DNA from: Bdellovibrio sp. 22V
GTDB lineage: Bacteria; Bdellovibrionota; Bdellovibrionia; Bdellovibrionales; Bdellovibrionaceae
Length of the DNA: 64,000 nt
Direction of reading: 5' to 3'
Assembly: GCF_030169785.1 (NCBI RefSeq)
Contig: NZ_CP125854.1
Span: 3,348,001 to 3,412,000, forward strand
Positions 1-50,740 of this stretch are shown here, one piece after another. Both the position numbers and the translations under genes were made by a program. The notes below the pieces were generated by a model that did no database searches, had not been told where the DNA came from, and saw only the letters and a list, made by a program, of their open reading frames with translations. Position 1 is the stretch's first letter, and each line of letters begins with the position of its first letter.

Positions 1-925
1 TATTGATAACATTCAAACGATAGAACAAATCTTGACGGAATCCGCCTTTTTGCACCATCTCTTCCAAGTTTCTGTTTGTCGCGGCGATAATACGCACGTC
101 GACTTTCATGTCTTCCGTCGCACCTACACGGCGGATCACACGTTCTTGGATCGCACGAAGAAGTTTTACTTGAATCGTCAACGGCAACTCACCGACCTCA
201 TCAAGGAACAAGGTACCGCCATCCGCGACTTCGAAAAGACCTGACTTGTCAGCCACAGCGCCCGTGAACGAGCCTTTTTTGTGACCGAACATCTCTGATT
301 CCATCAAATTTTCAGGAATGGCACCGCAGTTCACCGTTACGAACGGACGGTCTTTCAACGGACCGTTATAGTGAATCGCTTTCGCCACAACCTCTTTACC
401 TGTTCCCGACTCTCCCGTGATCAAAACGTTTGTTGGCGTTTGTGACACACGTTTCACCATATCATAAATGGAGTGCATAGCAGGAGAATTCCCCACCATG
501 TTTTGGAACGAGTATTCTTTAACGAGTTCTTTTTTAAGAGTTCTATTTTCTACTTCGAGATTGCGAGAGCGAAGAGCGTTTTGGATGTTGAGACGAACTT
601 CGTCGATCTTAAACGGCTTCGTCAAATAGTCGTAGGCACCCATCTTCATGGCTTCAACCGCAGTTTCCGTTGTACCGAAAGCTGTGATCAACATGAACAC
701 TGTGTCTGGGTAAGTTTCTTTGACGTGTTTCAGAAGCTCAATTCCCGTCACATGCGGCATCTGCAAGTCCGAGATGATCATGTCGAAGGTTTTTTTCGTA
801 AGAAGGTCTTTTGCCTTTTGGCCATCCTCAGCCAAAGTCACTTCATAGCCTTCTTTTTTAAGCATGATCTCTAAAAACTCGCGGATTGATTCTTCGTCAT
901 CGACAACAAGAATTCTCGACTTCAT
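1..925 (-). CDS. pilR: PilR-like sigma54 response regulator (3' end cut by window edge)
   Basis: The reverse strand from an ATG at 925 reads as an NtrC-family activator; about 308 residues lie in the window and the rest of the AAA+ domain and the HTH are off the left edge. The receiver domain (about residues 1-120) has the acidic pair VVDDEE and the phospho-acceptor Asp near residue 53 (IISDLQMP). The AAA+ sigma54-interaction domain shows Walker A GESGTGKE and the sigma54-contact loop GSFTGA, a known variant of GAFTGA. It lies 36 bp after a six-TM sensor kinase and closes a pilB-pilC-pilS set, so PilR, which classically activates pilin transcription with sigma54, is the best name. No pilin gene is in the window. 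Family assignment is near certain; the PilR name rests on context. Confidence 0.9.
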   Translation of the reverse strand, partial: MKSRILVVDDEESIREFLEIMLKKEGYEVTLAEDGQKAKDLLTKKTFDMIISDLQMPHVTGIELLKHVKETYPDTVFMLITAFGTTETAVEAMKMGAYDYLTKPFKIDEVRLNIQNALRSRNLEVENRTLKKELVKEYSFQNMVGNSPAMHSIYDMVKRVSQTPTNVLITGESGTGKEVVAKAIHYNGPLKDRPFVTVNCGAIPENLMESEMFGHKKGSFTGAVADKSGLFEVADGGTLFLDEVGELPLTIQVKLLRAIQERVIRRVGATEDMKVDVRIIAATNRNLEEMVQKGGFRQDLFYRLNVIN

Positions 926-34608: not shown

Positions 34609-35673
34609 ATGTTTAATCAAGTTGCACGCAAAGCAGTAATGATGGCTTCAGCTGTGGCAATGTTAGCTGGATGTAACAAGAGCACAGACTCTTTCTCTCT
34701 GTTGAAAGACGGTGCTGATTACAAACAGCAAGCGGTCTTCATCCCTAAGAAAATCGATATCCTTTGGGTGATCGATAACTCGGGCTCCATGAAAACATCT
34801 CAAGACAACCTTGCTTCGAATTTCCAAGCTTTTATTTCCCGTTTCAACCAATACAACTATGACTTCCACATGGCCGTGGTCACAACAGATGGATGGGAAA
34901 GACAATTCAACGCAAGTTCAGAGAAGGCTCGCATCAGGGACGGTGCGGTACTTCAAACGAACCCACGCGTTGAAACGCACTCAGGCGTGTTCGTCATGGA
35001 TAAGGCGACACCAAACTTGAGCAGCGTGTTCGAAACAAACATCAAGCAAGGAACGCTTGGTAACGGTGACGAACGTGCTTTTGAAAGTTTCAAGCAAAGC
35101 TTGCTGGATCCTTTCAACTCCAACTTCCGTCGCGCTGATGCGTTCCTCGCGGTGATTATCGTGAGTGACGAAGAAGACTATTCGGGATCTTCAACAGCGT
35201 TTGAGGATGCGAGCAAAAACTATCCGGTGCAAAATTACGTCGACTTCTTGAATAGCTACACTGATTTCGCAACAAACGGCAAAAACTACTCTGTAAACGT
35301 GATCTCTGTTCCAGATGAGGCTTGTAAAACGCAGCTTTCTACGGATGGTTTTGCACGCAAGATCTCCGTTCGTTTGCCAGAGTTGGCAGACTTGACGGGC
35401 GGTGTGAAGGCTTCATTGTGTTCAAACTTCGGTTCGACTTTGGAACTCATCTCAGACTCTATCATCCAGTTGTCAGCCGTGTTTAAACTGAGCCGTGAAC
35501 CGCAAGAAGATACAATCAAAGTCGTCGTTGACGGTGCGACAGTAGCAAATGACCCAGTCAATGGTTGGACTTACAACGCTTCGGACCTAACAATCACCTT
35601 CCACGGATCGTCCGTGCCTGGTGCAAACGCCAACATTCAAATCGACTACTATCCTAAGTCGATAAAACTCTAG
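34609..35673 (+). CDS. VWA-domain lipoprotein, CglB-like
   Basis: 354 residues. Lipoprotein signal with lipobox MLAGC (Cys about residue 22). A von Willebrand A fold follows: IDILWVIDNSGSM gives the metal-ion-dependent adhesion site D-x-S-x-S, and IIVSDEEDYSG supplies the distal Asp. It is the first gene of a cluster matching the Myxococcus Glt/Agl machine, where CglB, a VWA lipoprotein, is the surface adhesin linking the motor to the substrate. The parallel makes this protein the likely adhesin. Few cysteines compared with what I recall for CglB. AGGAGGG lies about nine bases before the ATG. Confidence 0.8.
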   Translation: MFNQVARKAVMMASAVAMLAGCNKSTDSFSLLKDGADYKQQAVFIPKKIDILWVIDNSGSMKTSQDNLASNFQAFISRFNQYNYDFHMAVVTTDGWERQFNASSEKARIRDGAVLQTNPRVETHSGVFVMDKATPNLSSVFETNIKQGTLGNGDERAFESFKQSLLDPFNSNFRRADAFLAVIIVSDEEDYSGSSTAFEDASKNYPVQNYVDFLNSYTDFATNGKNYSVNVISVPDEACKTQLSTDGFARKISVRLPELADLTGGVKASLCSNFGSTLELISDSIIQLSAVFKLSREPQEDTIKVVVDGATVANDPVNGWTYNASDLTITFHGSSVPGANANIQIDYYPKSIKL

Positions 35674-35684
35674 AAGGATTTTGT

Positions 35685-36302
35685 ATGGGTGGGGTACAAG
35701 CAGCAACAAGCACAAGTCAGTGGTATATACTTCGTGGGGAAATGAAATACGGTCCCTACGAGTATAGATCCCTGATCACGATGATCCAAAACAGTGAGCT
35801 CTTTGACTACAACTATGTGTGGGCTCCGCATTTGGAGAATTGGACATTGCTCGGTGATCTTCAGGAGTTTTCGAAAGACCGCCTTTGCCGTCTCATCGAA
35901 ACTAAAGACCATATCGCAGGTTCATTCAAAGACAGAAAGTGCCCGCGCGTGGATCTTACGACTCCGGTGTATGCGCACAACGATCACAACTTTTTTGACG
36001 GCCACACGTTGAGTGTGAGTGAAAACGGAGCTCTCGTTCTTTTGAACGATCCCCTTCTTCTTCCCGGCCAAAAAATCTTATTACATTTTAGAACATCTGA
36101 GGTGAATCCTCAGTCTTTCAACGTTCTTTGCGAGATTATTCGTAAGAATTATTCGAAGCAAAGACTCAACGTAAAATCCGGTTTGCATTATGCTGTTCGT
36201 TTCCTCTCGGTGCAAGACCAGGGCATGGCTCAATTAACAAAATGGACACGCGGTGGCGTTTCCAAGGAGGAAACAAATGGCATTCTTAAAGTTCATGAAT
36301 GA
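35685..36302 (+). CDS. GYF_2-PilZ protein
   Basis: 205 residues, cytoplasmic. Residues 10-60 look like GYF_2 (WYILRGEMKYGPYEYRSL), a fold that binds Pro-rich peptides. Residues about 85-190 look like PilZ: RKCPR fits RxxxR, and SVSENG sits where [D/N]xSxxG is expected. PilZ domains bind c-di-GMP. Lying second in the gliding operon, it may connect c-di-GMP level to the motor; a Pro-rich partner could be the Pro/Lys linker of the GltG-like protein downstream. The next gene starts inside its last nine codons. Confidence 0.8.
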   Translation: MGGVQAATSTSQWYILRGEMKYGPYEYRSLITMIQNSELFDYNYVWAPHLENWTLLGDLQEFSKDRLCRLIETKDHIAGSFKDRKCPRVDLTTPVYAHNDHNFFDGHTLSVSENGALVLLNDPLLLPGQKILLHFRTSEVNPQSFNVLCEIIRKNYSKQRLNVKSGLHYAVRFLSVQDQGMAQLTKWTRGGVSKEETNGILKVHE

Positions 36303-36978
36303 TTCCGGCTTTGTCGGTTGGTGCATTCTACTCGTGGGCATCGGCTCCCTAGTCCTAGTTGCCGAACGTGCTCGCGCTCTTTATAAAGATTACGGCATGA
36401 ACGTCGAAGAGTTCATGGGCAAAATCCAAAACCTCGTTTTGGCAAAAAAGCTCGATGAAGCGCTTTTGATGTGCGCGCAACTTGAGAAAAAACCATTAGC
36501 TAGCGCCTTCAAAACGATTCTTGAGAAAGCGGATCGTGACGATGATACGATCTTCCAAGCTCATGACATTGCTTTGAGTGAGAACGTGCCTCTTTATACA
36601 AAACGTCTGCACTATCTTTCGATGCTTGCCAACGTTGCAACTTTGCTTGGTCTTCTTGGTACAATCCACGGTCTTATCTTGTCGTTCCAAGCGGTAGCGA
36701 CAGCGGACCCTGCTCAAAAGCAAGCCTTGCTCGCGCACGGTATCTCGGTTTCGATGTATACGACGGCGTTGGGTCTTGCAGTGGCGATTCCAGCAATGGT
36801 GTTCTTCTCTTTCTTGACGGCTCGTCAAAACCAATTGATCGAGCAGATGTCAGAGAAGTGCTCTAAATTAACAGAGCTTCTTACAAGTGCTCACATCCCG
36901 AACCTGACTCGCCAAAACGTGTTCCCAGATCACGTGACAGCGCCAACGGCTCCTCCTCCAGGTACAAAAGCTTCCTAA
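36277..36978 (+). CDS. TolQ/ExbB/MotA-like motor subunit (AglR-like)
   Basis: 233 residues from ATG 36277, which has AAGGAGG six bases ahead; an upstream start at 36253 is less good. Three TM helices: about 12-35, and a pair within the C-terminal half with ATLLGLLGTIHGLILS and SVSMYTTALGLAVAIPAMV, the conserved proton-channel signature of TolQ/ExbB. With two TolR-like genes next to it, it forms the proton-driven motor of the Agl type. It overlaps the GYF-PilZ gene by 26 bp. The stop codon lies in the loop of a hairpin. Confidence 0.9.
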   Translation: MAFLKFMNDSGFVGWCILLVGIGSLVLVAERARALYKDYGMNVEEFMGKIQNLVLAKKLDEALLMCAQLEKKPLASAFKTILEKADRDDDTIFQAHDIALSENVPLYTKRLHYLSMLANVATLLGLLGTIHGLILSFQAVATADPAQKQALLAHGISVSMYTTALGLAVAIPAMVFFSFLTARQNQLIEQMSEKCSKLTELLTSAHIPNLTRQNVFPDHVTAPTAPPPGTKAS

Positions 36979-37026: not shown

Positions 37027-37569
37027 ATGAGACGCATTCGTAAGATTAAAGTAGATCATAATAGTGAGTTCGAGTTGGACTTAGCTCCCCTGCTCGCCGT
37101 GATGGTGAAGCTGGTGCCGGTTCTTCTTGTATCATCTGCGTTTGTGCAAATGATGGTGATCGAATCCGAACTCCCTCAGGTTGTTAACGAAGCTATTCAA
37201 CGTCAGGAACAAACTCCCACGCCTACGAATGTAGCAATGGAAGTTGATGCTGAAGGAATTCGCATCGTCATCACGGAAAAAGGCCAAGATAAAATCGAAA
37301 CGATTCCGATGAAAAACGGCGCATTCGATCTTGAGTCATTACACCAAAAGTTGATCGCAGTTAAAAAAGCGCATCCTGAAGTTTTCAAAATTGAATTGAA
37401 CCCCGACGGCAAAATCCCTTACGACCAGATCGTCAAAATTATGGATGAAGCCCGTCAGGCAAAAGACGTTAACGTCAAGTTTCCCGTTTTCGATACCAAG
37501 CAGGGTAAAAACGTGGAGACCAACTACATGTTTCCAGAAGTTGTCTTCGCCAACATGATGGAGGGCTAA
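37027..37569 (+). CDS. TolR/ExbD-like motor subunit lacking the channel Asp (AglX-like)
   Basis: 180 residues. One TM helix at about residues 17-40 and a periplasmic domain. The segment reads APLLAVMVKLVPVLLVSS: where ExbD has (F/I)D(V/M) and the paralogue downstream has TDM, this protein has LAVM, so the ion-carrying Asp is Ala, and a Lys lies in the helix. Together with the next gene it would make a mixed stator core. The C-terminal region (KIPYDQIVKIMDEARQAKDV) matches ExbD folds. Paired with the second TolR-like gene three bases downstream. Confidence 0.85.
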   Translation: MRRIRKIKVDHNSEFELDLAPLLAVMVKLVPVLLVSSAFVQMMVIESELPQVVNEAIQRQEQTPTPTNVAMEVDAEGIRIVITEKGQDKIETIPMKNGAFDLESLHQKLIAVKKAHPEVFKIELNPDGKIPYDQIVKIMDEARQAKDVNVKFPVFDTKQGKNVETNYMFPEVVFANMMEG

Positions 37570-37572
37570 GAT

Positions 37573-38070
37573 ATGTCACGCCGTCGTAGATTTGAGCCTA
37601 ATCTTAAAAAGAACTCGACGTTCACCTTGAACATCACATCGATGACAGACATGTTCACCATCATGCTTGTGTTCTTGTTGCAAACGTATTCAACGTCCGA
37701 CGTACAAATCATTCCTGAGAATGGCTTGCGTCTTCCGTCTTCTGCTTCCATGGTGAATCCTACAGAAGCAGTAAAGCTTTCTCTTTCGCAAGAGGGCTTG
37801 AAAATTGACGAGACAAAAATCGCGGATGTGAAGAACGCTGACTTTCTTCCCCAAGATCTAGAAGATAAAGATACAAACTTTATCAAACCGCTTTTCGCAG
37901 AATTAGATAAACTCGCGAAAAATTCTGCCGATAAAGCCCACATCAAGGAAGGCCGTATCCTTCTTCAAGCAGATAAGGAACTCCCTTACGCTACACTCCG
38001 CAAGGTTATGTATACGGCATCAATGGCAGGCTTTCCACAACTGAAACTTGTTACCATGGTTGGAGAATAA
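37573..38070 (+). CDS. TolR/ExbD-like motor subunit (AglV-like)
   Basis: 165 residues. TM helix at about 15-38 with TSMTDMFTIMLVFLLQ, which keeps the Asp that carries the proton in ExbD/TolR. Periplasmic domain to the end with ADKELPYATLRKVMYTASMAGF, the usual ExbD terminal motif. GGAGG eight bases ahead of the ATG lies within the end of the previous gene. Forms the motor with the TolQ-like protein. Confidence 0.9.
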   Translation: MSRRRRFEPNLKKNSTFTLNITSMTDMFTIMLVFLLQTYSTSDVQIIPENGLRLPSSASMVNPTEAVKLSLSQEGLKIDETKIADVKNADFLPQDLEDKDTNFIKPLFAELDKLAKNSADKAHIKEGRILLQADKELPYATLRKVMYTASMAGFPQLKLVTMVGE

Positions 38071-38074
38071 GTTT

Positions 38075-41000
38075 ATGATGCGCACAGTGATTCTGCTTCT
38101 GGCATTTCATCTCTTTTCAATGTACTGCTTCGCGGCTGAACAAAAAGGACTTCTGCCTGAAGTTCGTTTGAAAAACGGCAACGAAGAAGAAAACGAAAGA
38201 AAAGCTTTCAGCAGCGAGATTATGATTACACGCTCTGAAAACAAGGCTATTGAGTCACTGCAGGTAATCATCAAAAAGAAAAAAGGCTCTCGAGAAGAGG
38301 CCGACCTTTGGTATCGTCTTGCCGAACTTTACATGCGCCGTTCGAAATCAGGCCGCTTCTTTGACTTACACCAAGATACGAAACTTATGAAACTTTCACC
38401 GTTCCCAGTACCCAATGAAAAAGGTTCTGAAGCGGTGAAACGCGCTATTAAGATTTATACAAAAATTGAGCTCGACTTCCCGAACTTCAAACAAATGGAT
38501 GCCGTGCTCTTCAACAACGCTTTTGCAAACCAGCAAGTTGCCCAGTACAAACAGTCGGAACAGCTTTATCATAAACTTCTGTCTCGCTTCCCTAAGTCAC
38601 CTTTGATTGCCGACGGTACTTTGGCGGTGGGTGAGCTGCTTTATGATCAAGGTAAGTTTGCTGAAGCTTTGGAGCATTTCCTTAAAGTGGAAAAATTCCC
38701 AAACAGCCGTGTTTATTCCTACGGTATGTATAAAGCCGCTTGGGCTTACTACAATCTTCGCGATAGTGAAAACGGAATTAAAAAACTTGTCGAGGTTGTA
38801 AAAACAAATCCGCCTCTGCAAGACGGTGAAGTGCCAACAAACCGCCACAACCTGCGTCGCGAAGCTTTGCGCGATTTGACGGTTTTTATCGGCGACTCCT
38901 ACCCTGCTAACAAACTTTATTCTTTCTTTGAAGACATCACGACGGAAGATGAGCTGGGTCAGTCCATGGTTGACCTTGCAAAACTTTACGAATCACATAG
39001 CCGACACAAGGAAATGAATGTCTTTCTTGAAGAGTACATCGAAAAACGTCCTTCAGGTCCTGACGTTGTAAAGTCCCACTTGTTCCTTGTTGACGCCAAC
39101 GAGAACATGAAGAAACGTGACAAAGTGATTGAGCACTTACAAATGGCTTCCGATCACTGTAAGAAAGACGCCACGTGGAGATCTTTGCAAAAGCCTGAAG
39201 ATGCCAAAGTGGCTTGTGAAGAAGAGTTCCGTACCGCCAGTCTGGATATGGCCCGCAAGTGGTGGGAAATCTGGCTTAAGAACAAACAAAACGTTGCGTT
39301 CTCTGACTTAACGCAAAGACTTTTCAAATTGATTCTTGAAAATGACGACTCTGCAAAACCGGATCTTAAAACTCGTTTTGCTTACGGCGAGCTTCTTTTC
39401 CAATTGGAAAAATACGACGAAGCCAGCACGCAATATAAAATGGTCGGCGATAAAGCGACAGAAGAACCTCTGCGCCATGACGCCAACTATGCGGCTCTTT
39501 ATTCCAAAGAGAAATCCATTGAAAAAGGCAAAGATCCTTTGAAAGAAGCTGAGCGCAAAGAATTGGCCGCCAATTATTTGACGAAGCATCCGACGGGCAA
39601 GTTCTCGACATTAGTGAAATTTAAACTGGGTCATATCGCTTACGAAGAAAGCAACTATGCGGAAGCAGAAAAAATTCTTCAACCATTGGCTCAGCTTAAA
39701 GGCGCAGATAACGCTGATATCAAGAAAAAGTCGGAAGACTTGATCTTGGATATGCTGAACATCCGTAAAGACTATGCGGGAATTAAAGCCTTCTCGAAAC
39801 AAGTTATGACTTCTACAGGCGATGCAAGCCGTAGAAAGAACATGAACAAAATCATGGAAGAGGCGCATTTCACAGAGATTCAAGAGTTTGCTAAAGGCGG
39901 CGACAAAGATCAAGCATCGCAAAAACTTATCGCCTTCGCCAAAGAACATGAAGACTCAAAACTTTCTCAAGATGCTTTGTGGCAGGCCCTGAGCCTTCTG
40001 TATGCGGAAGGCAAAGTTTATGACGCCGCGGAACTATCGATGAAGTTCGTGCAAAAATATCCAGATGATAAGCGCAACCTTGACGCCTTGAAAGAGGCCG
40101 CTAAGGCTTATGCGGACGTCGGTCAAATTTCTAAATCCGCTGAGACTCTTTTGAAAATCGCGGATCTGGATAAAAAAGGCCGTAACACGCACCTTGAATT
40201 GGCAGCGGACATCTATCTTTTGGAAAAGAAAACAAAAGAGGCCCGTGCCGCTTACAATGGCATCTTGAGCGCGGCTGACAATAAAACATTGTCGCGAATC
40301 TATGGCAAACTTATGGATTCCTACAAAAACGAATCCCGCTCAAGCGAGCTTGAGAAGTTGCAAAATCAAATCTTGGCGAAAGGTATTGAGCCTTATACGA
40401 CAGAGATTATGATTGACCGCGCGAAAGCGCTTTTGGATTCCGGCAAAACAACGGCCGCATTTGATTTGGCAATGAAAGCGAACGGCCGCGACGTTTCCGC
40501 GGAAATCCGTGCAGAAGCCCGTTTGATCCAGGCGCGCATTCTTGAAAAAGAACTTGTCGCACAAAGCGTAAAAGCCCGTGAAGAAAAATTCGCGATGGTT
40601 TTGGCAATGAAAACGGAAAAACTGGATAAAGCTCACACGGCTTACTTCACAACGTTGAAAATGAGCAAAGACCCTTATCAACAGTTGGAAGCTATGCGCG
40701 GTATTGACCGTTGTTACGGAAACTTTATCGAGAGCTTGGAAACAATGCCCCTCCCCGCTTCTTTGAGCGCGGAAGATCAAACAGCTTTGCGTGCCGAGAT
40801 CGCCAAACTGACAACTCCGATTCAAGAGAAGAAGAACGAGAATGAGGCGAAACTTAAAGTCTTGGCGGCTTCCAAAGGTCAAGCGGCGACGACAGAGCGT
40901 GCGTTTGCTTCCATCCGCGTGGATCAAACGGTTCCGCCAATGGTGGCTTATCCTTCTGTAGAAAAGATGACAGCGTTCTTGCCTTCATCCGCAAATATGG

Positions 41001-41782
41001 ACATCGGCAGCGTGTCTCGCTTTGAGACGCGAACTCCAAAAGCTTGTAACAGATCTGCGGTGATGAGCGGACAAGTCACAAAATCGAACGCTCCGGAAAT
41101 TGCGGGAAATTGTTATTATTCTCGACAGTACGATACGGTGGAAAGATTGGGCCTTGAGCTTGCAAAACAGAAAGACGCGCGTGCCTTGGGTCTTTTCTAT
41201 GCCAGCCTTGGTGCGGAAGCCAAAGGCTATTCGGCGAAAGCGTTGTGGATGATTGAATCCGCTTTGAAGAACCAGCCAGAAGCTTCTCCGTTCGTGTACC
41301 AAAAAGCGCGTCTCGTTTATAGAGACGAAGGCTTGAATTCCGCAATGCCGTTTTTCGAAAAAGTTTTAGACATGCAAATGCCTTCAACAGAAATGAAAAC
41401 TTTCGCGGGAGTGAAGGCTTTCTCAGAGGGAGATTTTACGAAAGCAATTGAAAAATTGTCTTCTCTCTCTAAAGAACAGTTGTATACTTTGAATGTGGGA
41501 ACTCTTGTGAGCGAGTCATATGCTCAGAAGGGTGAAGTCGAAAAGGCATTGAGCACGATCAAAGATCTGCTTACCATCAAGAAGGACAACGCCGACTTCC
41601 TCTTACAACAAGCACACTTGTTTGAGACCTACAAGCAAAGCCCAACGCTCGCGTTGGACTCTTATGAAAAAGCGTTTAAAGCCAGTCAGCAATTGGATAT
41701 GCGTGATTGGTTAGGTAAGAAAATACAGTATTTGAAAACACAAAACAAAGTCGGTCAGCACGTTATCTCGGGAGACTTGTAG
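38075..41782 (+). CDS. Very large TPR protein, GltD/AgmU-like
   Basis: 1235 residues from ATG 38075 (GGAGA ahead); the TTG at 38048 lies in the previous gene. Signal peptide MMRTVILLLAFHLFSMYCFA, so periplasmic. The rest is nearly all TPR-type helix pairs, for example SPLIADGTLAVGELLYDQGK, DALWQALSLLYAEGKVYDAA and MKTFAGVKAFSEGDFTKAIE. Size, location and repeat content match GltD (AgmU), a periplasmic scaffold of the Myxococcus gliding machine. Placed just after the motor genes. Confidence 0.85.
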   Translation: MMRTVILLLAFHLFSMYCFAAEQKGLLPEVRLKNGNEEENERKAFSSEIMITRSENKAIESLQVIIKKKKGSREEADLWYRLAELYMRRSKSGRFFDLHQDTKLMKLSPFPVPNEKGSEAVKRAIKIYTKIELDFPNFKQMDAVLFNNAFANQQVAQYKQSEQLYHKLLSRFPKSPLIADGTLAVGELLYDQGKFAEALEHFLKVEKFPNSRVYSYGMYKAAWAYYNLRDSENGIKKLVEVVKTNPPLQDGEVPTNRHNLRREALRDLTVFIGDSYPANKLYSFFEDITTEDELGQSMVDLAKLYESHSRHKEMNVFLEEYIEKRPSGPDVVKSHLFLVDANENMKKRDKVIEHLQMASDHCKKDATWRSLQKPEDAKVACEEEFRTASLDMARKWWEIWLKNKQNVAFSDLTQRLFKLILENDDSAKPDLKTRFAYGELLFQLEKYDEASTQYKMVGDKATEEPLRHDANYAALYSKEKSIEKGKDPLKEAERKELAANYLTKHPTGKFSTLVKFKLGHIAYEESNYAEAEKILQPLAQLKGADNADIKKKSEDLILDMLNIRKDYAGIKAFSKQVMTSTGDASRRKNMNKIMEEAHFTEIQEFAKGGDKDQASQKLIAFAKEHEDSKLSQDALWQALSLLYAEGKVYDAAELSMKFVQKYPDDKRNLDALKEAAKAYADVGQISKSAETLLKIADLDKKGRNTHLELAADIYLLEKKTKEARAAYNGILSAADNKTLSRIYGKLMDSYKNESRSSELEKLQNQILAKGIEPYTTEIMIDRAKALLDSGKTTAAFDLAMKANGRDVSAEIRAEARLIQARILEKELVAQSVKAREEKFAMVLAMKTEKLDKAHTAYFTTLKMSKDPYQQLEAMRGIDRCYGNFIESLETMPLPASLSAEDQTALRAEIAKLTTPIQEKKNENEAKLKVLAASKGQAATTERAFASIRVDQTVPPMVAYPSVEKMTAFLPSSANMDIGSVSRFETRTPKACNRSAVMSGQVTKSNAPEIAGNCYYSRQYDTVERLGLELAKQKDARALGLFYASLGAEAKGYSAKALWMIESALKNQPEASPFVYQKARLVYRDEGLNSAMPFFEKVLDMQMPSTEMKTFAGVKAFSEGDFTKAIEKLSSLSKEQLYTLNVGTLVSESYAQKGEVEKALSTIKDLLTIKKDNADFLLQQAHLFETYKQSPTLALDSYEKAFKASQQLDMRDWLGKKIQYLKTQNKVGQHVISGDL

Positions 41783-42074: not shown

Positions 42075-43544
42075 ATGCTCACGTTGATTGTACGTCAGTC
42101 CTTGAAAAATGGGACTGCAAAAACCTGGAAGCTTCGTTCGAATAACACAACTCACACCTTCGGGTCTTCCCGTTTGGCGGATGTGATCTCTATCGCTCCC
42201 GGCACAAAAGGTATTCAAGGTCTTTTTGAGTACCGTGATGACCGCTGGTGGTATGTCAACATGGATCTCAATTCCAGCGCGAACGGCGGCATTTCTCCGG
42301 CGCTCTGCCTGGATTCGGAAAAATCCGTGGAGCTTGAAGACTGCGTTCTGCACTTCTCCCCTATCGAAAAGGAAACGGATCTTTATCTGCGCCTGGAAAA
42401 AGCCGGTAAAGAGCAACGGGATTCGCACAAGAAATTCCAGCTCTATATCGTAAAACAAGCCGGTAAAGTGGTAGAGACGAAAGTTCTGCCTTTGAATAAA
42501 AAATTTAAACCTTCCATGGCCGTGACACCGCTGACAATTGCGTGCACGCCTTCAGAAGAGTGGCAACGTCAAACTGTCGGCGATCTTGAAATCAGCCAAC
42601 GTACGGTTTCAATTGAAAACGCCGCAGCTCTGGCCCGCTTAACGGCCAGCCAATTGGTCGATGAAGATTCTAAAAAAGGTCTTTTCATCGTTCTTGGCGC
42701 GGCTTTCTTCTTGGTGACCGTCGGTATTTTCGCACCGAAGAGTCAGGACCTTGAAGTCGCGGCGGCTCCACCGAAAGTGGCGCAAAAAATTATTGTTAAA
42801 ACAGAACTCAAACCAAAACGTAAAAAAGCAGAATCACCAAAACCACAACAAGTGGTTGTGAAAGAAGCGGCTCCTGCGGCAGGTCCAAAAGTGGAAATGC
42901 CTACCAACGGCAGCCAAAGCAGGGTTTCAAAAATGATGAAGTCCTTGGCTGGTGGCCGTATCTCTCAATTGATCGGAAAAGTTTCCGCACAAGCAGCTAA
43001 AAGCGGCAACGTTGTTTTTGCTAACGGTGTAAAGGCCGGTAGCGGAGCTTCGGGTCGTGCTCTTGCAGCTGTAGGTGGTATGGAACGTTCCGGTCGTGAC
43101 TGGGGCAGCGAAGGAACTGGTAAAGGTGTTGTCATCTCCACTGCGGGTAAAGGTGGCGGTAACAGCGCTGCAGGAATGGGTGGTCTTGCTGCCGGTGGAA
43201 CTGGTAATGCCGGTGTTGGTTTGATTGAGGAAGAAGGCGAAATCACAGGCGGCTTGGACCGTGAAGTGATCGCGCAATATATCAAATCAAAATTGGGACA
43301 AATCCTTTATTGCTACGAACGTCAACTCAGCGCCAATCCCGATCTTTTCGGTAAAGTCGCTGTAAGATTCACCATCGGGCCCTCGGGCTCCGTTGAACAA
43401 CAACTAATTGGGGACACAACACTTAAGAACGCAACCGTTGAGGGATGTATATTGAATAGGGTTGCTGCATGGAAGTTTCCTTCTCCACAAGGGGGAACTC
43501 GCGTGCTCGTGACGTATCCATTCTTATTCAAAAGTACAAACTAA
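42075..43544 (+). CDS. GltG-type TonB-like protein: FHA-like head, TM, Gly-rich linker, AgmX C-domain
   Basis: 489 residues. The cytoplasmic N-terminal ~190 residues look FHA-like (THTFGSSRLADVISIAP, VELEDCVLHFSPI). A TM segment lies about 205-225 (LFIVLGAAFFLVTVGIFAP). A Pro/Lys-rich stretch (KPKRKKAESPKPQQVVV) and a Gly-rich, probably flexible linker cross the periplasm. The C-terminal ~100 residues (VIAQYIKSKLGQILYCYERQ ... VTYPFLF) are the AgmX/PglI TonB-like domain. In Myxococcus, GltG and GltJ connect the motor to the outer-membrane complex. Confidence 0.88.
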   Translation: MLTLIVRQSLKNGTAKTWKLRSNNTTHTFGSSRLADVISIAPGTKGIQGLFEYRDDRWWYVNMDLNSSANGGISPALCLDSEKSVELEDCVLHFSPIEKETDLYLRLEKAGKEQRDSHKKFQLYIVKQAGKVVETKVLPLNKKFKPSMAVTPLTIACTPSEEWQRQTVGDLEISQRTVSIENAAALARLTASQLVDEDSKKGLFIVLGAAFFLVTVGIFAPKSQDLEVAAAPPKVAQKIIVKTELKPKRKKAESPKPQQVVVKEAAPAAGPKVEMPTNGSQSRVSKMMKSLAGGRISQLIGKVSAQAAKSGNVVFANGVKAGSGASGRALAAVGGMERSGRDWGSEGTGKGVVISTAGKGGGNSAAGMGGLAAGGTGNAGVGLIEEEGEITGGLDREVIAQYIKSKLGQILYCYERQLSANPDLFGKVAVRFTIGPSGSVEQQLIGDTTLKNATVEGCILNRVAAWKFPSPQGGTRVLVTYPFLFKSTN

Positions 43545-43559
43545 GGCGGGGGTAATATC

Positions 43560-44303
43560 ATGTTGAAGAAAACACTTTTAATGTTCATCTTGGCTGCATC
43601 GCAAGCTTTTGCACAGCAAGGAACTGAGACTAAGCCGGCAACAGAGCAAAGAGGCAGCGACAAGTTGGACATCAAAAAACTAGAGCAAAAATATTGGGCC
43701 GCTAAAGACGATGACTTTAGCGTCGTACAAAATCGTCGTTACACAAAAGCGGAAAGATTCTATCTGAACCTGGCTGGTGGTGTACCCATCAATGACCCGT
43801 TCGGAACAGGCACGATCACATCAGCACAACTCGGTTATTTCTTTAATGAACGCTGGGGTGTGGATATTAACTACACGAACGCGGACATGAAAGATAACGA
43901 TAATACCAAACAGTTTATCGACGAGAACGGAACCGCACCGAACTACAACTTCTTTAAAAACTCGAAGATGTTGTCGGTTACGTACGTTCCCCTTTACGCA
44001 AAAATGAGCTTCGTTGACAAAGCCATCATCTATTTCGATATGGGCATCCAAATCGGTGTTGGTACAACGGACTACATCATTAAAAAAGAGGAAGGCGACG
44101 AGAATAAGAGCGCGATGAGCTACCAAATCGGTATCAATCAGCAAATTTTCTTCTCGGAGCATTTTGCGATCCGCGCGGACTTCATCAATAAATTTACGAA
44201 TGAAGACCGCTTCAAGTACAGCGCTATTGCACCAGATCGTGATCTTGGATCCAAGATGGTGAACGACACGCAACTTCTATTGGGGATCACATACTGGCAT
44301 TAA
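43560..44303 (+). CDS. Outer-membrane beta-barrel protein of the gliding cluster (GltA/GltB-like)
   Basis: 247 residues. Signal peptide MLKKTLLMFILAASQAFA, then a charged spacer. From about 65 a barrel with alternating aromatic strands (FYLNLAGGVPINDPFGTGTI, RWGVDINYTNADM, KAIIYFDMGIQIGVGTT, FAIRADFINKFT). The family resembles the myxobacterial 'outer membrane beta-barrel domain' proteins. Only one such barrel is here, while Myxococcus has two side by side (GltA, GltB). Confidence 0.85.
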   Translation: MLKKTLLMFILAASQAFAQQGTETKPATEQRGSDKLDIKKLEQKYWAAKDDDFSVVQNRRYTKAERFYLNLAGGVPINDPFGTGTITSAQLGYFFNERWGVDINYTNADMKDNDNTKQFIDENGTAPNYNFFKNSKMLSVTYVPLYAKMSFVDKAIIYFDMGIQIGVGTTDYIIKKEEGDENKSAMSYQIGINQQIFFSEHFAIRADFINKFTNEDRFKYSAIAPDRDLGSKMVNDTQLLLGITYWH

Positions 44304-44326
44304 TTTTCTCCATGGGTGGGGGATTT

Positions 44327-46447
44327 ATGTATAAGCCTTTAAAAATACTATTAGCGATTCCACTTCTGTGCGGCACGGCTTTGGCTGAGCCCGCACTGAC
44401 AGTGAAAAAATCAGGGCGACCAGCGGCGACAGGATTGAAAGTTAAATCCAGTTCTGTTCCAACCTTTGAGGTCTATCAGAAAAAAGTCGTCAAAGGTAAA
44501 GTCGAAGTCTTTAAAGTAAAAAACATTCCTTTGCTGGATCTCGGGGAAGAGAGAATTCTTGAAGCGCCAACGCTCAGTCCTCTTCGCCTCCCCGCTTCTC
44601 GTGACGTGAGTGTGGCAGAGGCAAAAAGACGTCCGTCTCCCTTGCCTTTGCAATTCAACGTGGCGCCTTACAACGTCACTGTGGAACCTGCAAAGTCCCT
44701 GACGAATGCGGAAGCTTTCAAAAAAATTCCAGACGTCAAAATCTTGAATCCGGTTCAAGAGCCTGTAACCCAAGATCCTTTGGTACAGTTGGCAAAACTG
44801 GATGACATGCAACCTAACGACTATAAACTCTTGCAGGCTTTGATTTTCCTGGAGATCCAAAAGAACTATGAACTTGCAATGGGCTTGTTCGCAGAACTTA
44901 TGGAAGATCCAGAGCACAGAATCGAAGCGCTTTATCACTATGCGATGACGGCGAAAGGTCTGGGTCTAAATTCAGAATTCCGCCAATACATGATCCAAGT
45001 GGCGCAAGAAACAAAAAACAAAGAATGGCAGCAGAAAGCAACGGAAGCCCTTGTTCAAAACATCAATGTTTTGGAAGTGTCTGACATCGCCTTTGTCGAT
45101 CCTCTTGTTATTAAGTACGAAATCGACGTTACAAAGAATGATGACTACCAATTGACACGTGCGAAGCACTATTCCGAAAAGGGCCAATTGGGACTTATGG
45201 AAGACGCTTTGGTTTATATCTCTGAAACGTCTCCCCGTTATCCGGAAGCTCTTTTGTTGAATGCGCTCTTCAACTACCGCCAAGGTAAAGTGGAAGATGC
45301 CGTTGTTCACTTAGACCGTTTGATGAAGGTCACAGAGGCGGATAAAACATCGCAAATCCGTTCTGTCGGTGCTTTGACATTGGCGCGCATGCAGTTCCAA
45401 AAGAGCGACTATAAAGAAGCCTTCCAATCTTATTTGAAGGTTGATAAGTCGAATCCTCTTTGGTTGCAAGCGATGGTGGAAAGCGCTTGGACACAGATCC
45501 TGGGCGAAGACTATGAAGGTGCGGCAGGGAACATGTTCTCTTTGCACACAGACTTCTTTAAAAACGCCTTTGCTCCGGAGTCTTACGTTGTTCGTACCGT
45601 CGGTTACTTGAACCTGTGCCAATACGGTGACGGTGTGCAAGTTCTCAACGAGATGAACAAGAAATACGCTCCTTGGAAAAAGAAGCTCGAAGACTACATG
45701 CGAACTCGTAAAGAGTCCGTAAATTATTACGACACCGTGAAAAACTGGTTGAAGAACTCAGACCTTAAAGAGGTCGACGGTCTTCCCCGCTCTTTCATCG
45801 TAGAGTTGGCTCGTCATCCGGCTTACATGAGCGTGCAAAAACAAATCAATAACTACGAGGACGAAATTCTTCGCTTCAACAAGATCGCTTTGACTTTGAT
45901 TAAGAAAGAGCGTGAGTTGATCGCGAAACAAAATGAAGCCAATAAACTATTGGCGGAGGCAAAACGCGGCATTAAAGGCAACAGCCCTTCTGAATCCGCG
46001 GTGCAAAACGTGCAAAGTGCCGAGAAAAAACTTTTGAGTTACCGCATTCAATACCATATCGCCAAGAAAGCCCGCATCTCGATTAAGAATTTGCGCGCGC
46101 AAGGCTTGGCTCGTATTGAAAAAGAGAAAACTGTTCTTCGCGCCCAGGCTTCCCAAGCGTTGCAATCACGCTTTGGCGAAATGCTTGCTAGCTTGAACAA
46201 AGTTCTCGATCAGAATGAGGTTCTGCAATACGAACTTTACTCTGGCGCCGGCGAACACATCCGCTACCAAATGGCTGGCGGTGACGTAAATACGAAAGAA
46301 CGCCCAGAACTGAAAGTTGAGAAAGAAAAAAGTCTGAACTGGAAATTCAAAGGTGAAATCTGGGAAGACGAAGTGGGCCACTACCGCTCTTCTCTTAAAA
46401 ATGTCTGCGCACAACAAGATAATGTCGCAGGTTTGTCTGAACAATAG
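44327..46447 (+). CDS. Periplasmic TPR protein, GltC-like
   Basis: 706 residues from ATG 44327, which has GGGGG ahead; the ATG at 44312 is within that ribosome site. Signal peptide MYKPLKILLAIPLLCGTALA. An unstructured region of ~130 residues precedes TPR-like repeats (YKLLQALIFLEIQKNYELAM, LLLNALFNYRQGKVEDAVVH, IRSVGALTLARMQFQKSDYK). A coiled-coil follows at about 525-640 (KKERELIAKQNEANKLLAEA). Position after the barrel matches gltC of Myxococcus. Confidence 0.8.
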   Translation: MYKPLKILLAIPLLCGTALAEPALTVKKSGRPAATGLKVKSSSVPTFEVYQKKVVKGKVEVFKVKNIPLLDLGEERILEAPTLSPLRLPASRDVSVAEAKRRPSPLPLQFNVAPYNVTVEPAKSLTNAEAFKKIPDVKILNPVQEPVTQDPLVQLAKLDDMQPNDYKLLQALIFLEIQKNYELAMGLFAELMEDPEHRIEALYHYAMTAKGLGLNSEFRQYMIQVAQETKNKEWQQKATEALVQNINVLEVSDIAFVDPLVIKYEIDVTKNDDYQLTRAKHYSEKGQLGLMEDALVYISETSPRYPEALLLNALFNYRQGKVEDAVVHLDRLMKVTEADKTSQIRSVGALTLARMQFQKSDYKEAFQSYLKVDKSNPLWLQAMVESAWTQILGEDYEGAAGNMFSLHTDFFKNAFAPESYVVRTVGYLNLCQYGDGVQVLNEMNKKYAPWKKKLEDYMRTRKESVNYYDTVKNWLKNSDLKEVDGLPRSFIVELARHPAYMSVQKQINNYEDEILRFNKIALTLIKKERELIAKQNEANKLLAEAKRGIKGNSPSESAVQNVQSAEKKLLSYRIQYHIAKKARISIKNLRAQGLARIEKEKTVLRAQASQALQSRFGEMLASLNKVLDQNEVLQYELYSGAGEHIRYQMAGGDVNTKERPELKVEKEKSLNWKFKGEIWEDEVGHYRSSLKNVCAQQDNVAGLSEQ

Positions 46448-46461
46448 AAAGGATTTTCAAG

Positions 46462-47115
46462 ATGAAACTCGCTAAAGCAATGACGACTTTGACTATCGGT
46501 GTTTTGATGAGCTTGCACACAACGGCTTTCGCACAAAATTCAGCGAAAGAAGGACTTGAGCGCATCAAATCGAATTTGAACAACTCCAAAGCCAATCTCA
46601 CTGAGTATGAAAAGAATCTGAAGACGGTGGAAGGCAATATCGCGGAAGTGAACAAGGCGAAATCTCAAGTTGAAGGACAACAAAAACAAGTTCTGCAACA
46701 AGTGGAAGAAAACAACCAGGCCTTGGGACGCATCGGCGGTCAGGAAAAAGAAATCCAACACTTGATCAACGATGAAAGAAATAAAATGGCGCAAGAGACC
46801 CAAAAGATTCAAGAGCTTGAAGCCATGATCGCGAAGATCAAAGAAAACCAGAAGAAACGCGAAATGAATATCTCGGACTATCAATTGCAGATCAACCAAT
46901 TGGCCGAAGAGAAAAAAATCTGGGGCTCCCGCGCCGCAAGCTTGAAAGAGCAAAACGACCAGGTGAACAAACAGCTGCGCACCCTTGCGAGCGAAGAGAA
47001 CGAATGGAAAGCGAAACAACGCGGTTATCAAGGTGAAGTAAAACGCTGGAGTAAAGAAGTCGAAAGACAACAGAAAATCAGCGACAGCTACAACTCTTTA
47101 GCTGAAGTGAAATAA
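46462..47115 (+). CDS. Periplasmic coiled-coil protein
   Basis: 217 residues. Signal peptide MKLAKAMTTLTIGVLMSLHTTAFA. The mature protein is a continuous coiled-coil rich in Lys, Glu and Gln (about 30-205; NLNNSKANLTEYEKNLKTVE, AEEKKIWGSRAASLKEQ). Last gene of the gliding operon, 14 bp after the TPR protein and followed by a terminator. No named family recognised; a structural spacer in the periplasmic part of the machine would fit. Confidence 0.75.
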   Translation: MKLAKAMTTLTIGVLMSLHTTAFAQNSAKEGLERIKSNLNNSKANLTEYEKNLKTVEGNIAEVNKAKSQVEGQQKQVLQQVEENNQALGRIGGQEKEIQHLINDERNKMAQETQKIQELEAMIAKIKENQKKREMNISDYQLQINQLAEEKKIWGSRAASLKEQNDQVNKQLRTLASEENEWKAKQRGYQGEVKRWSKEVERQQKISDSYNSLAEVK

Positions 47116-47173: not shown

Positions 47174-47296
47174 GAGTTTTTTTACATTCATATTAGTAAA
47201 AATAGACTCAAGTCCCGACCAATTAAACCGAAAATTTATTTCACAAAAATATTTAGTTTCCTAAATAAATAAACAAAAAATGCATGAGGAATGTAT

Positions 47297-48940
47297 ATGA
47301 ATTCATCGTCTTTAAGTTCTTGGTTCAAAGGAATCAAAGGGAAGCTGCTCTTCGCGGCGGCTTTGCCCCTCGTTGGTTTCGGAACCGTTTGGTTGATTTC
47401 CCATTCGGGAATGAGCGGACTTGCTAAGGTCATTAGCAGCTCCAACAACGACGTCATCCCGAGTCTTCAGGGTCTCGGCCAGATCCGCACAGGACGTAAT
47501 AAGTTTGGTTATCAGGCTTACGCAGCTTTAAACTTCCGCGGCAACGCCGAGAAAAAAGCAGAGCGCCTAAAAATTGCTCGTGAGGCTATCGATGAAATTA
47601 AAAAAGGCATCGAGTTCTACGAGTCCTTCCCGTTTACGCCCGAAGGTGAAAAACTCTGGGCTCCTATGGCGCGAATTAAAGAGCCTCTTTTCGCCTCTAT
47701 GGAAAAAGTCGTAAAACTTCTTGAAGAAGGCAACTACGATGAGGCGCAAAACATTCTGGCGACCAACATTTGGGATTACGGCGTAATCATGAATGGCGCG
47801 ACGACATCTTCATTGAACTATTACAATGAGCGCGTAAAAGCTGAAACCTTGGAAGCCAATGAGTCCGTGAAAACAGCGAATACCATGGTTTTGACGGTCA
47901 CTCTTATTTCGTGTTTCTTGATTTCTGCAATTCTTTTATGGATTGCCTCACGTGTTTCCGCTTCCGTGGGTTCGATTGCAGAGAGACTCACTGGCGCCGG
48001 CAACCAAGTGGCTTCGGCGGTCGAACAATTGAACGAGGCTGGGAATTCATTGTCACAATCTTCAACGGAAGCGGCGGCTTCTTTGGAAGAAACTGTGGCG
48101 GCTTTGGAAGAGATGTCTTCGATGGTGCAAATGAATTCCGACAATGCCAAACAAGCGGCGGCTCTTTCGGCGTCTTCTCGTGACGCGGCTGAAACCGGCG
48201 AACGTGAAATTCAAACTTTGATTCAATCAATGACCGAAATCTCGAAATCTTCCAAGAAAATTGAAGAGATCATATCAGTCATCGACGATATCGCTTTCCA
48301 AACAAACTTGTTGGCTTTGAACGCTGCGGTTGAAGCCGCTCGTGCCGGAGAACAAGGTAAAGGTTTTGCGGTGGTTGCTGAGGCCGTTCGTGCCTTGGCG
48401 CAAAGAAGTGCCGCTGCAGCGAAAGATATTACGACTCTTATCAAGGACTCCGTTTCACAAATCGAGAACGGCAGTGAAATCGCTGATAAGAGCGGTACGG
48501 TTCTGAGCAATATCGTAAACTCCGTTAAAAAAGTCTCTGACTTGAATACCGAAATTGCGGCGGCAAGTTCGGAGCAAACGACAGGCATCCAGCAAATCAG
48601 CAAAGCGATGAATCAGTTGGATCAGGCCGCACAATCAAACGCCGCCTCTGCCGAGGAAATCGCGGCGACAAGTGGCGAGATCAACAACCTGGCGATGACA
48701 TCACAAAACCTGACGGTGGAGTTGAATACGATCGTTCTTGGCGCCTCCGAATTGCCTGCGGGACAGGTGATGGAAAGCAAGACGAAGGTCGCGCACAAGC
48801 CTGCGGCAAAGCCGACGGTGAAAAATAAAGTCATCCCGTTTAAGACAAAACCGGCCACTGCGAAGAAAAAAGATTCGCAAGACGTGATTCCCTTCGATGA
48901 GGATGAGCGCGCTAAGGTCGGAACAACAGACGGTTTTTGA
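47297..48940 (+). CDS. Methyl-accepting chemotaxis protein
   Basis: 547 residues from ATG 47297 (GAGGA six bases ahead; an ATG at 47291 abuts that site). TM1 about 13-33, a periplasmic helical domain to about 190, TM2 about 195-217, then directly the signalling coil without an obvious HAMP. The signalling tip is [20 protein letters not shown] and [20 protein letters not shown]. The tail ends [17 protein letters not shown], shared with the next gene. Also shared are the [13 protein letters not shown] start and near-identical cytoplasmic halves, so the two are a tandem duplication with diverged sensors. Confidence 0.94.
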   Translation: MNSSSLSSWFKGIKGKLLFAAALPLVGFGTVWLISHSGMSGLAKVISSSNNDVIPSLQGLGQIRTGRNKFGYQAYAALNFRGNAEKKAERLKIAREAIDEIKKGIEFYESFPFTPEGEKLWAPMARIKEPLFASMEKVVKLLEEGNYDEAQNILATNIWDYGVIMNGATTSSLNYYNERVKAETLEANESVKTANTMVLTVTLISCFLISAILLWIASRVSASVGSIAERLTGAGNQVASAVEQLNEAGNSLSQSSTEAAASLEETVAALEEMSSMVQMNSDNAKQAAALSASSRDAAETGEREIQTLIQSMTEISKSSKKIEEIISVIDDIAFQTNLLALNAAVEAARAGEQGKGFAVVAEAVRALAQRSAAAAKDITTLIKDSVSQIENGSEIADKSGTVLSNIVNSVKKVSDLNTEIAAASSEQTTGIQQISKAMNQLDQAAQSNAASAEEIAATSGEINNLAMTSQNLTVELNTIVLGASELPAGQVMESKTKVAHKPAAKPTVKNKVIPFKTKPATAKKKDSQDVIPFDEDERAKVGTTDGF

Positions 48941-49105: not shown

Positions 49106-50740
49106 ATGAATTTAGCAGGTTGGTTCAAAGGAATTAAAGGGAAACTTCTCTTCGCGGCATTCTTGCCGATGATAGGTTTCGGTATCATTTTCGTTGTGGC
49201 TTTGCGGGGTCTGGATCGAACAAATTTGATCTTGGAAGATGCGCATAGCCTTATTATTCCCAATCTTATGTATCTCGGCGAGATGCGCCAGTCGCGCAAC
49301 AAGTTCGGTTATCAAACATGGAACGCTTTTGACGTCATCAATGATCCCGAAAATCTAACAAAGAAACTGAAGAGTGCAAGAGAAGGCATCGAAGAGTTTT
49401 CGACAAACTATACGAGCTATGTGAATGCCCGTTTCGCTCCAGGGGAAGCCGAAATCCACGATAAGGCGAAAGACACTGTTCCCCTTCTTATTAAAACAAT
49501 GGAAGAGATTGTCAGACTTATCGAAACAAAAGACCCACAAAAAATTGCTGAAGCTAAGCATCTTCTTAACACAAAGTTTCTTGAACAAAATGCCGTCGTT
49601 CGTGACTTCAACCGCGCGGTAGACAAACTCTATTCCGATCATGCGAAACACGATGCTGTCGAGGCGAAAGAAACTCGTTCCTATGTTTTCAATATGCTCA
49701 TTATGATCACTCTTGCATCAGCGTTTGCGATTTTCGGAGTTCTTCTTTGGGTCGCAGCACGCATCTCAAATTCAGTGAGCTCGATTGCGGGTCGTTTAAC
49801 AGTCGCTGGCGGCCAAGTTGCTTCTGCGGTTGAACAATTGAACGAAGCCGGAAATTCTTTGTCGCAATCATCAACGGAAGCGGCAGCTTCACTTGAAGAA
49901 ACGGTCGCGGCGCTGGAAGAGATGAGTTCCATGGTACAAATGAACTCTGACAACGCAAAACAAGCGGCCGCTCTTTCTGCTTCTTCGCGAGATTCCGCAG
50001 AACACGGTGAAAAAGAAATTCAAAGTCTGATTCAATCTATGACAGAGATTTCCCAGTCTTCTAAAAAGATTGAAGAGATCATCCACGTGATCGACGATAT
50101 CGCTTTCCAAACAAACTTGCTGGCTTTGAATGCGGCGGTGGAAGCGGCTCGTGCCGGTGAGCAAGGTAAAGGTTTCGCGGTTGTTGCAGAAGCCGTTCGC
50201 TCTTTGGCACAAAGAAGTGCCGCTTCAGCGAAAGACATTTCAAGTCTTATCAAAGACTCGGTATCACAGATTGAAAGAGGCAGTGACATTGCCGATCAGA
50301 GCGGTGCTGTTCTTACAAACATTGTGACGTCGATCAAAAAGGTTTCTGACTTAAACAACGAGATCGCAGCCGCCAGCGCGGAACAAACAACAGGCATCCA
50401 GCAAATCAGCAAAGCAATGAATCAATTGGATCAAGCATCACAATCCAATGCAGCTTCTGCTGAAGAAATCGCAGCGACAAGTGGCGAGATCAACAATCTT
50501 GCAGCCACGAATCAGAATCTAACTGTGGAACTAAACACATTGATTCTTGGTGGGAACCCGCACGTGGAAGCGCCTTCTGCTTCCACAGCGACTGCGACTA
50601 AAAAGTTCGCGGCACCAAAAAAATCCAATGTTGTGCAATTCAAACAGTCCAAAGAAACGATGAAGGTGTCAAAAGCTTCGGACATGATCCCGTTTGATGA
50701 AGATTCTCGCTCTAAGGTCGGGACGACGGACGGATTCTAG
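49106..50740 (+). CDS. Methyl-accepting chemotaxis protein, tandem paralogue
   Basis: 544 residues, ATG 49106 with AGGAG five bases ahead. Same plan as the preceding gene: [13 protein letters not shown] start, TM1, diverged periplasmic domain (about 35-190), TM2 near 195-218, no clear HAMP, and a cytoplasmic half almost identical to its neighbour. Same C-terminal [17 protein letters not shown]. The shared tail does not match the NWETF CheR-docking pentapeptide, so it may be a lineage-specific docking tag. The last 29 bp overlap murJ tail to tail. Confidence 0.94.

Follow-up and report, generated by a model that had tools for sequence, protein, structure and literature searches.

A TolQ-like gene followed by two tandem TolR-like genes

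We analyzed a stretch of 64,000 nucleotides from Bdellovibrio sp. 22V (NCBI RefSeq assembly GCF_030169785.1, contig NZ_CP125854.1, positions 3,348,001 to 3,412,000 of the forward strand), hereafter the window. It carries an operon in which the gene for a TolQ/ExbB/AglR-like ring subunit is followed by two tandem genes for TolR/ExbD-like subunits (Table 1). Both TolR-like proteins score above the Pfam ExbD/TolR (PF02472) cut-off of 25.4 bits; the TolQ-like, first and second genes all lie in one frame, with a gap of just 3 bases between the two TolR-like genes. The neighboring genes of the operon, coding for a VWA lipoprotein, a PilZ–GYF protein, TPR proteins, an outer-membrane barrel candidate and a coiled-coil protein, resemble the Agl/Glt clusters described for Bdellovibrio. 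Among these, the PilZ–GYF_2 protein is a candidate c-di-GMP sensor or regulator that may control the motor, and the 489-aa protein of the 42075–47115 segment has no match in Pfam. Just past the operon lie two tandem chemoreceptor-like genes (47291–48940 and 49106–50740), the signaling halves of which are very similar.

Table 1. Genes of the operon and key residues of the three motor subunits (positions in the window)
Feature	Position	Strand	Evidence or remark
CglD-like (gliding adhesin) VWA/MIDAS lipoprotein, head of operon	34609-35673	+	NCBIfam gliding_CglD 4e-13, MIDASAdhsBdello 2e-15, both below cut-off
PilZ + GYF_2 protein	35685-36302	+	PilZ 48.7 bits, GYF_2 32.8 bits; 3' end overlaps start of TolQ-like gene
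TolQ/ExbB/AglR-like ring subunit, 233 aa	36277-36978	+	Pfam MotA_ExbB 91.8 bits; aligned to solved TolQ/ExbB chains
Thr129 of TolQ-like subunit, pore threonine (E. coli TolQ T145)	36661-36663 (codon)	+	
Thr163 of TolQ-like subunit, pore threonine (E. coli TolQ T178)	36763-36765 (codon)	+	
First TolR/ExbD-like subunit, 180 aa, without pore Asp	37027-37569	+	Pfam ExbD 74.3 bits
Asp18 (gac) of first subunit, position -6	37078-37080	+	Asn in Asp-bearing relatives
Ala24 (gcc) of first subunit, at the proton-carrying Asp site	37096-37098	+	Sequence and alignment
Lys28 (aag) of first subunit, position +4	37108-37110	+	Conserved in family f1 only
Second TolR/ExbD-like subunit, 165 aa, with Asp26	37573-38070	+	Pfam ExbD 60.2 bits
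Asp26 (gac) of second subunit, remaining proton-carrying residue	37648-37650	+	Sequence and alignment
Long TPR protein	38075-41782	+	TPR families
Rest of operon: 489-aa protein, outer-membrane beta-barrel candidate, second TPR protein, coiled-coil protein	42075-47115	+	ORFs, Pfam

Aligned on the N-x-x-x-P-x-x-D motif region of ExbD/TolR, the first subunit reads L-D18-L-A-P21-L-L-A24-V-M-V-K28 and the second L-N20-I-T-S-M-T-D26-M-F. The position of the proton-carrying Asp (ExbD D25, TolR D23) is accordingly occupied by Ala24 in the first subunit and by Asp26 in the second, while the TolQ-like protein has both threonines of the proton-channel ring, with Thr129 and Thr163 as the equivalents of T145 and T178. 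An earlier sequence-only reading had described this very pattern, namely Ala for Asp with a Lys nearby in the first subunit and Asp in the second, and the open reading frames, coordinates and alignment agree with it exactly. It had also raised the prospect of an Asp elsewhere in the helix of the first subunit; across the 81 Asp-less loci described below, there is no conserved acidic residue from position -5 to +20 relative to the Asp site, which also rules out a misalignment masking a helix Asp. Asp18, at position -6, precedes the helix and is a feature absent from that reading. A sequencing or assembly error is ruled out by the occurrence of the Asp-less state in those 81 loci of separate genomes. 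The window genome as a whole codes for ten ExbD/TolR proteins, comprising two single canonical versions and four tandem pairs; the other three pairs have Asp in both members, and only the pair in the window is lopsided.

Relationship to the Tol–Pal, AglRQS and E. coli systems

The names AglX and AglV, which the sequence-only reading had attached to these proteins, had to be abandoned. They denote the TolQ and TolR of the Myxococcus Tol–Pal system, where they sit in an operon with tolA, tolB and pal (PMC3169522); thus, although these are TolQ/TolR homologs with a motility label, they belong to a different operon from that of the window. Against the NCBIfam TolQ equivalog, the window TolQ-like protein scores 62.6 bits (cut-off 221), and against the TolR equivalog the two TolR-like proteins score 29.4 and 25.8 bits (cut-off 127.3). 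These scores, all below the cut-off, rule out membership of Tol–Pal, and the neighbors in the window are VWA, PilZ and TPR genes.

The window cluster shares with AglRQS the combination of one TolQ-like and two tandem TolR-like proteins in the vicinity of adhesin, TPR and envelope genes; by tree and gene order, its first subunit is the counterpart of AglQ and its second that of AglS. Orthology to AglRQS was nonetheless rejected: in IQ-TREE phylogenies of the TolQ and TolR-like proteins, the window cluster groups with sister clusters, a second type of Myxococcota cluster (L207 and others) that is the closest clade to it in the TolQ tree and both TolR trees (SH-aLRT/UFBoot 99.9/100 for the first subunits). 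We label this type M2-like after PMC3169522, assuming the equivalence of the L207 type to the M2 of that study. In the TolQ tree, AglRQS is instead joined by the three other clusters of the window genome, L011–L013 (SH-aLRT/UFBoot 92.6/98). The first and second subunits form separate clades and, therefore, the pair predates the split of these lineages. Of the B. bacteriovorus HD100 genes, Bd0828–0838 were named as closest to AglRQS (PMC3169522), whereas the window cluster belongs with the second Myxococcus type. A predation defect has been reported for Bd0838, labeled 'AglS' (PMC6561027); it is not claimed here for the window operon, as the counterpart of this operon in HD100 may be Bd0828–0838 or one of the three other clusters.

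The Myxococcota loci were reached via MglA, the query serving solely as an entry to named genomes. Myxococcus sp. CA023 carries both an AglRQS cluster (L215), the AglQ of which matches the published protein in length (162 aa) and residue (D28), and a second-type cluster (L207), with Asp in both subunits of each. Unlike the window pair, AglRQS has Asp in both AglQ (D28) and AglS in this strain and its relatives (L215–L217). The second-type clusters likewise have Asp in both subunits in the Myxococcia and Polyangia, and Asn in the first subunit in the Nannocystales. One record labeled Comamonas sp. KCTC 72670 (L127), the MglA of which shares 99% identity with the Myxococcus query, is probably mislabeled or contaminated.

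With the E. coli ExbB–ExbD and TolQ–TolR systems the window proteins share the threonine ring, the Asp motif in the second subunit and an ExbD-like periplasmic fold. The difference lies in the inner chains: those of E. coli are two identical chains with two Asps, modeled as moving 36 degrees per proton (PMC12215075), whereas the window pair is lopsided.

Conservation and losses of the first-subunit Asp

We searched 144 Bdellovibrionia genomes and read 110 syntenic loci. First, the pore-Asp site of the first subunit is occupied by Ala in 74, Ser in 7 and Asp in 29 of these, making 81 of the 110 Asp-less. Second, the Asp of the second subunit is present in 108 of the 108 loci where it was read, as are the T145-like threonine in all 110 and the T178-like threonine at every locus. 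Third, the TolQ-like, first and second genes are found once each, in constant order and strand, in all 108 loci with all three read. The Asp-less state spans the family of the window (f1) and members of four further families. A single origin within Bdellovibrionia is not rejected when the Asp-less rows are kept together (AU p = 0.56), so that many losses within this group are unneeded. In TM3 of the TolQ-like protein (36760–36765 in the window), a further Thr precedes the T178 equivalent in 77 of the 81 Asp-less motors and in all Nannocystales read; as a marker of the Asp-less state this 'TT' is only loosely linked, being shared by the Asp-bearing families f2, f10 and f11.

Between congeners, the dN/dS of the first subunit is 0.03–0.07, as low as that of the second, and dN in its TM segment is zero in five of seven congener pairs. 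The former value rules out a decaying gene, and because of both the first subunit can be taken as a kept, working protein. Thus, the absence of the proton-carrying Asp from one of the two tandem TolR-like subunits is, by alignment, tree and dN/dS, both ancient and selected.

The Lys singled out in the sequence-only reading fared less uniformly: Lys28 is real and present in 61 of 61 members of f1, but it is not general to the Asp-less subunits, the others having Thr, Cys, Asn or Ala at +4. Its fixation in the window's own family could point to a changed ion or drive, with Lys28 or the threonines carrying the cycle, or with the complex being a regulated passive linker rather than a proton motor. 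However, Lys28 is found in no other Asp-less lineage, and the second-subunit Asp and both TolQ threonines never vary, a constancy for which a passive linker would have no need. We therefore regard this explanation as very improbable.

Outside Bdellovibrionia, the Nannocystales lost the first-subunit Asp separately: each of the 27 genomes that have the gene shows Asn instead (PVMNVM/PVMNIM), although the Asp of the second subunit and the two TolQ threonines are retained in their loci. Asn is also present at this site in L289 and L290, two more Myxococcota loci (genomes G278 and G181), which branch, with uncertainty, close to the root of the Myxococcota clade. In a tree of 121 first subunits, calculated with these sites masked, the supported branches force at least two losses of the Asp, and the shortest parsimony reconstruction has four changes. 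The losses are confined to the first subunit, with none in any second subunit read. Nannocystis-type genomes additionally code, away from these loci, for first subunits of the Asn type that have Asp at -6 (L263, L264 and L265); no TolQ or second-subunit match was found in the stretch around each of these. One further Nannocystis-type copy has an internal TGA (G169:C2:6129473-6129700).

ExbD, TolR and MotB generally form homodimers. By analogy, the second subunit might form a normal homodimeric 5:2 channel, with the first forming either a non-conducting homodimer or homodimer complexes with TolQ, for anchoring or competition. The extra Nannocystis copies suggest that the Asp-less protein may indeed stand alone. 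Nevertheless, the presence of a single gene for each of the three proteins at every complete locus speaks against separate pores, as does the strong constraint on the TM segment of the first subunit, which is necessarily in the pore; moreover, a channel of TolQ with the first subunit only would have no pore carboxylate at all. Such a division into separate pores hence seems quite unlikely.

Asp18 and the modeled structure of the pair

Position -6 of the first subunit showed a striking relationship with the pore site. Among the Bdellovibrionia loci, Asp is found there in 81 of 81 Asp-less versions, as opposed to 0 of 29 Asp-bearing ones, which have Asn; across all first-subunit rows, the corresponding figures are 40 of 69 with the pore Asp lost and 0 of 52 with it kept. 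Beyond Bdellovibrionia, an Asp at -6 is again seen only in Asn-type subunits, namely L289 and the solo Nannocystis copies. This pattern could mean that the acid has moved, with Asp18 at the cytoplasmic mouth partly replacing the lost Asp in proton exit or charge balance, such that each chain would keep one working carboxylate. However, the swap is not required, as Asn is retained at -6 despite the loss of the pore Asp in 26 of 29 Nannocystales rows, and the coupling reflects just two or three independent events, too few for a paired test to reach significance. Solved structures also argue against it: residues 8–18 of E. coli TolR are unfolded in the hydrophilic cavity of TolQ, with the pore helix starting from 19, and the TM helix of ExbD spans 21–42 (PMC12215075). 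Position -6 corresponds to TolR 17 and ExbD 19 and, therefore, lies outside the pore. Consistent with this, the helix of the first subunit in the AF2 model begins at residue 20, with low confidence in this region. Asp18 may aid proton exit or charge balance but is unlikely to replace the pore carboxylate, and the moved-acid explanation as a whole appears unlikely.

The AF2 model of the first subunit (mean pLDDT 81, about 60 in the TM) displays the architecture of PF02472, with one N-terminal TM helix (residues 20–36) followed by a periplasmic α/β domain. We modeled the pair as the two genes read through the stop codon, using 33 sequences; the resulting model (pTM 0.69), in which the TM and linker are of low confidence, shows a strand at residues 42–44 of the first subunit. 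Both chains are spanned by the alignment with 8pek, a solved ExbD dimer (model 44..344, Z 7.3, rmsd 2.9), and the second subunit is matched by single ExbD domains with Z of 7.5–7.8; all of these Z values are below 8 and thus under the level that is safe on its own. At that level, the modeled pair and its alignment with 8pek are consistent with paired subunits. A search of the PDB with the sequence of the first subunit recovered no relatives, and a Foldseek search with the first subunit alone returned mostly unrelated folds, with ExbD 8vgc only at rank 22, and was given no weight.

A putative motor with a single pore carboxylate

Taken together, we moderately favor an obligate 5:1:1 TolQ:first:second motor with a single pore carboxylate, for which we infer the heterodimer, the proton flow and the step size. 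The products of the operon would form an energized motor in the inner membrane, of the ExbBD/TolQR/AglRQS kind, with a ring of five TolQ-like subunits around a single copy of each TolR-like protein. In the hydrophobic pore, the sole carboxylate would be Asp26 of the second subunit, opposite the TolQ threonine ring. The first subunit would make up the second half of the axle, and its residue at the Asp site (Ala or Ser here, Asn in Nannocystales) would always be neutral, equivalent to an always-protonated site. Protons would load onto and leave Asp26 alone and, with only this loading site, the two inner chains would be unable to alternate. If the motor rotates, each proton would turn it by 72 degrees (five per turn) as opposed to 36 (ten per turn), and a single pore Asp would preclude the doubly charged state that current schemes include. 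The sequence-only reading had held that, with a mixed dimer, the pore would contain just a single titratable Asp; our results support this consequence, with the mixed dimer itself still a predicted arrangement.

A fixed 1:1 pair would suit the constant gene order, the 3-base gap and the separate ancient clade of each subunit. Two points count against the 5:1:1 motor: Asp-bearing first subunits from the other clusters of the genome could in principle be swapped in, and Asp18 coincides perfectly with the loss of the pore Asp in Bdellovibrionia. Furthermore, in the M. xanthus AglRQS motor, the AglQ D28N mutation alone abolishes proton conductance and movement, even with AglS present (PMC3858216); lopsided motors must, therefore, carry compensating changes. 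From its sequence, the Nannocystales Asn state is in effect this mutation, fixed. More tentatively, the lineages with such losses could represent a repeatedly evolved class of single-carboxylate 5:1:1 motors, taking one proton per 72 degrees with one chain locked in the 'protonated' state; we consider this possible, though short of probable.

These observations bear on how motors of this family are understood to work. A 2022 review describes both AglQ and AglS as having the conserved Asp, leaves undecided whether they form homo- or heterodimers, and holds the ten-fold periodicity 'almost certain to be a universal feature' (PMC9389320). In current models, as summarized in 2025, two essential Asps alternate, with 36 degrees per proton (PMC12215075). 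The literature leaves undecided whether the Asp swap passes through a doubly protonated or a doubly charged state. In the open-access literature, we found no report of an ExbD/TolR-family motor naturally lacking one Asp. By comparison of sequences, entire families share the lopsided arrangement, which has at least two origins and conflicts with models in which two identical Asps take turns. A one-Asp motor would directly test the questions of the intermediate state, the heterodimer and the step size: its genetically distinct subunits can be tagged separately, its step size should double and the doubly charged state should be impossible. If the proposed motor is correct, alternation between two Asps would be inessential to the family, and a neutral–neutral intermediate would suffice.
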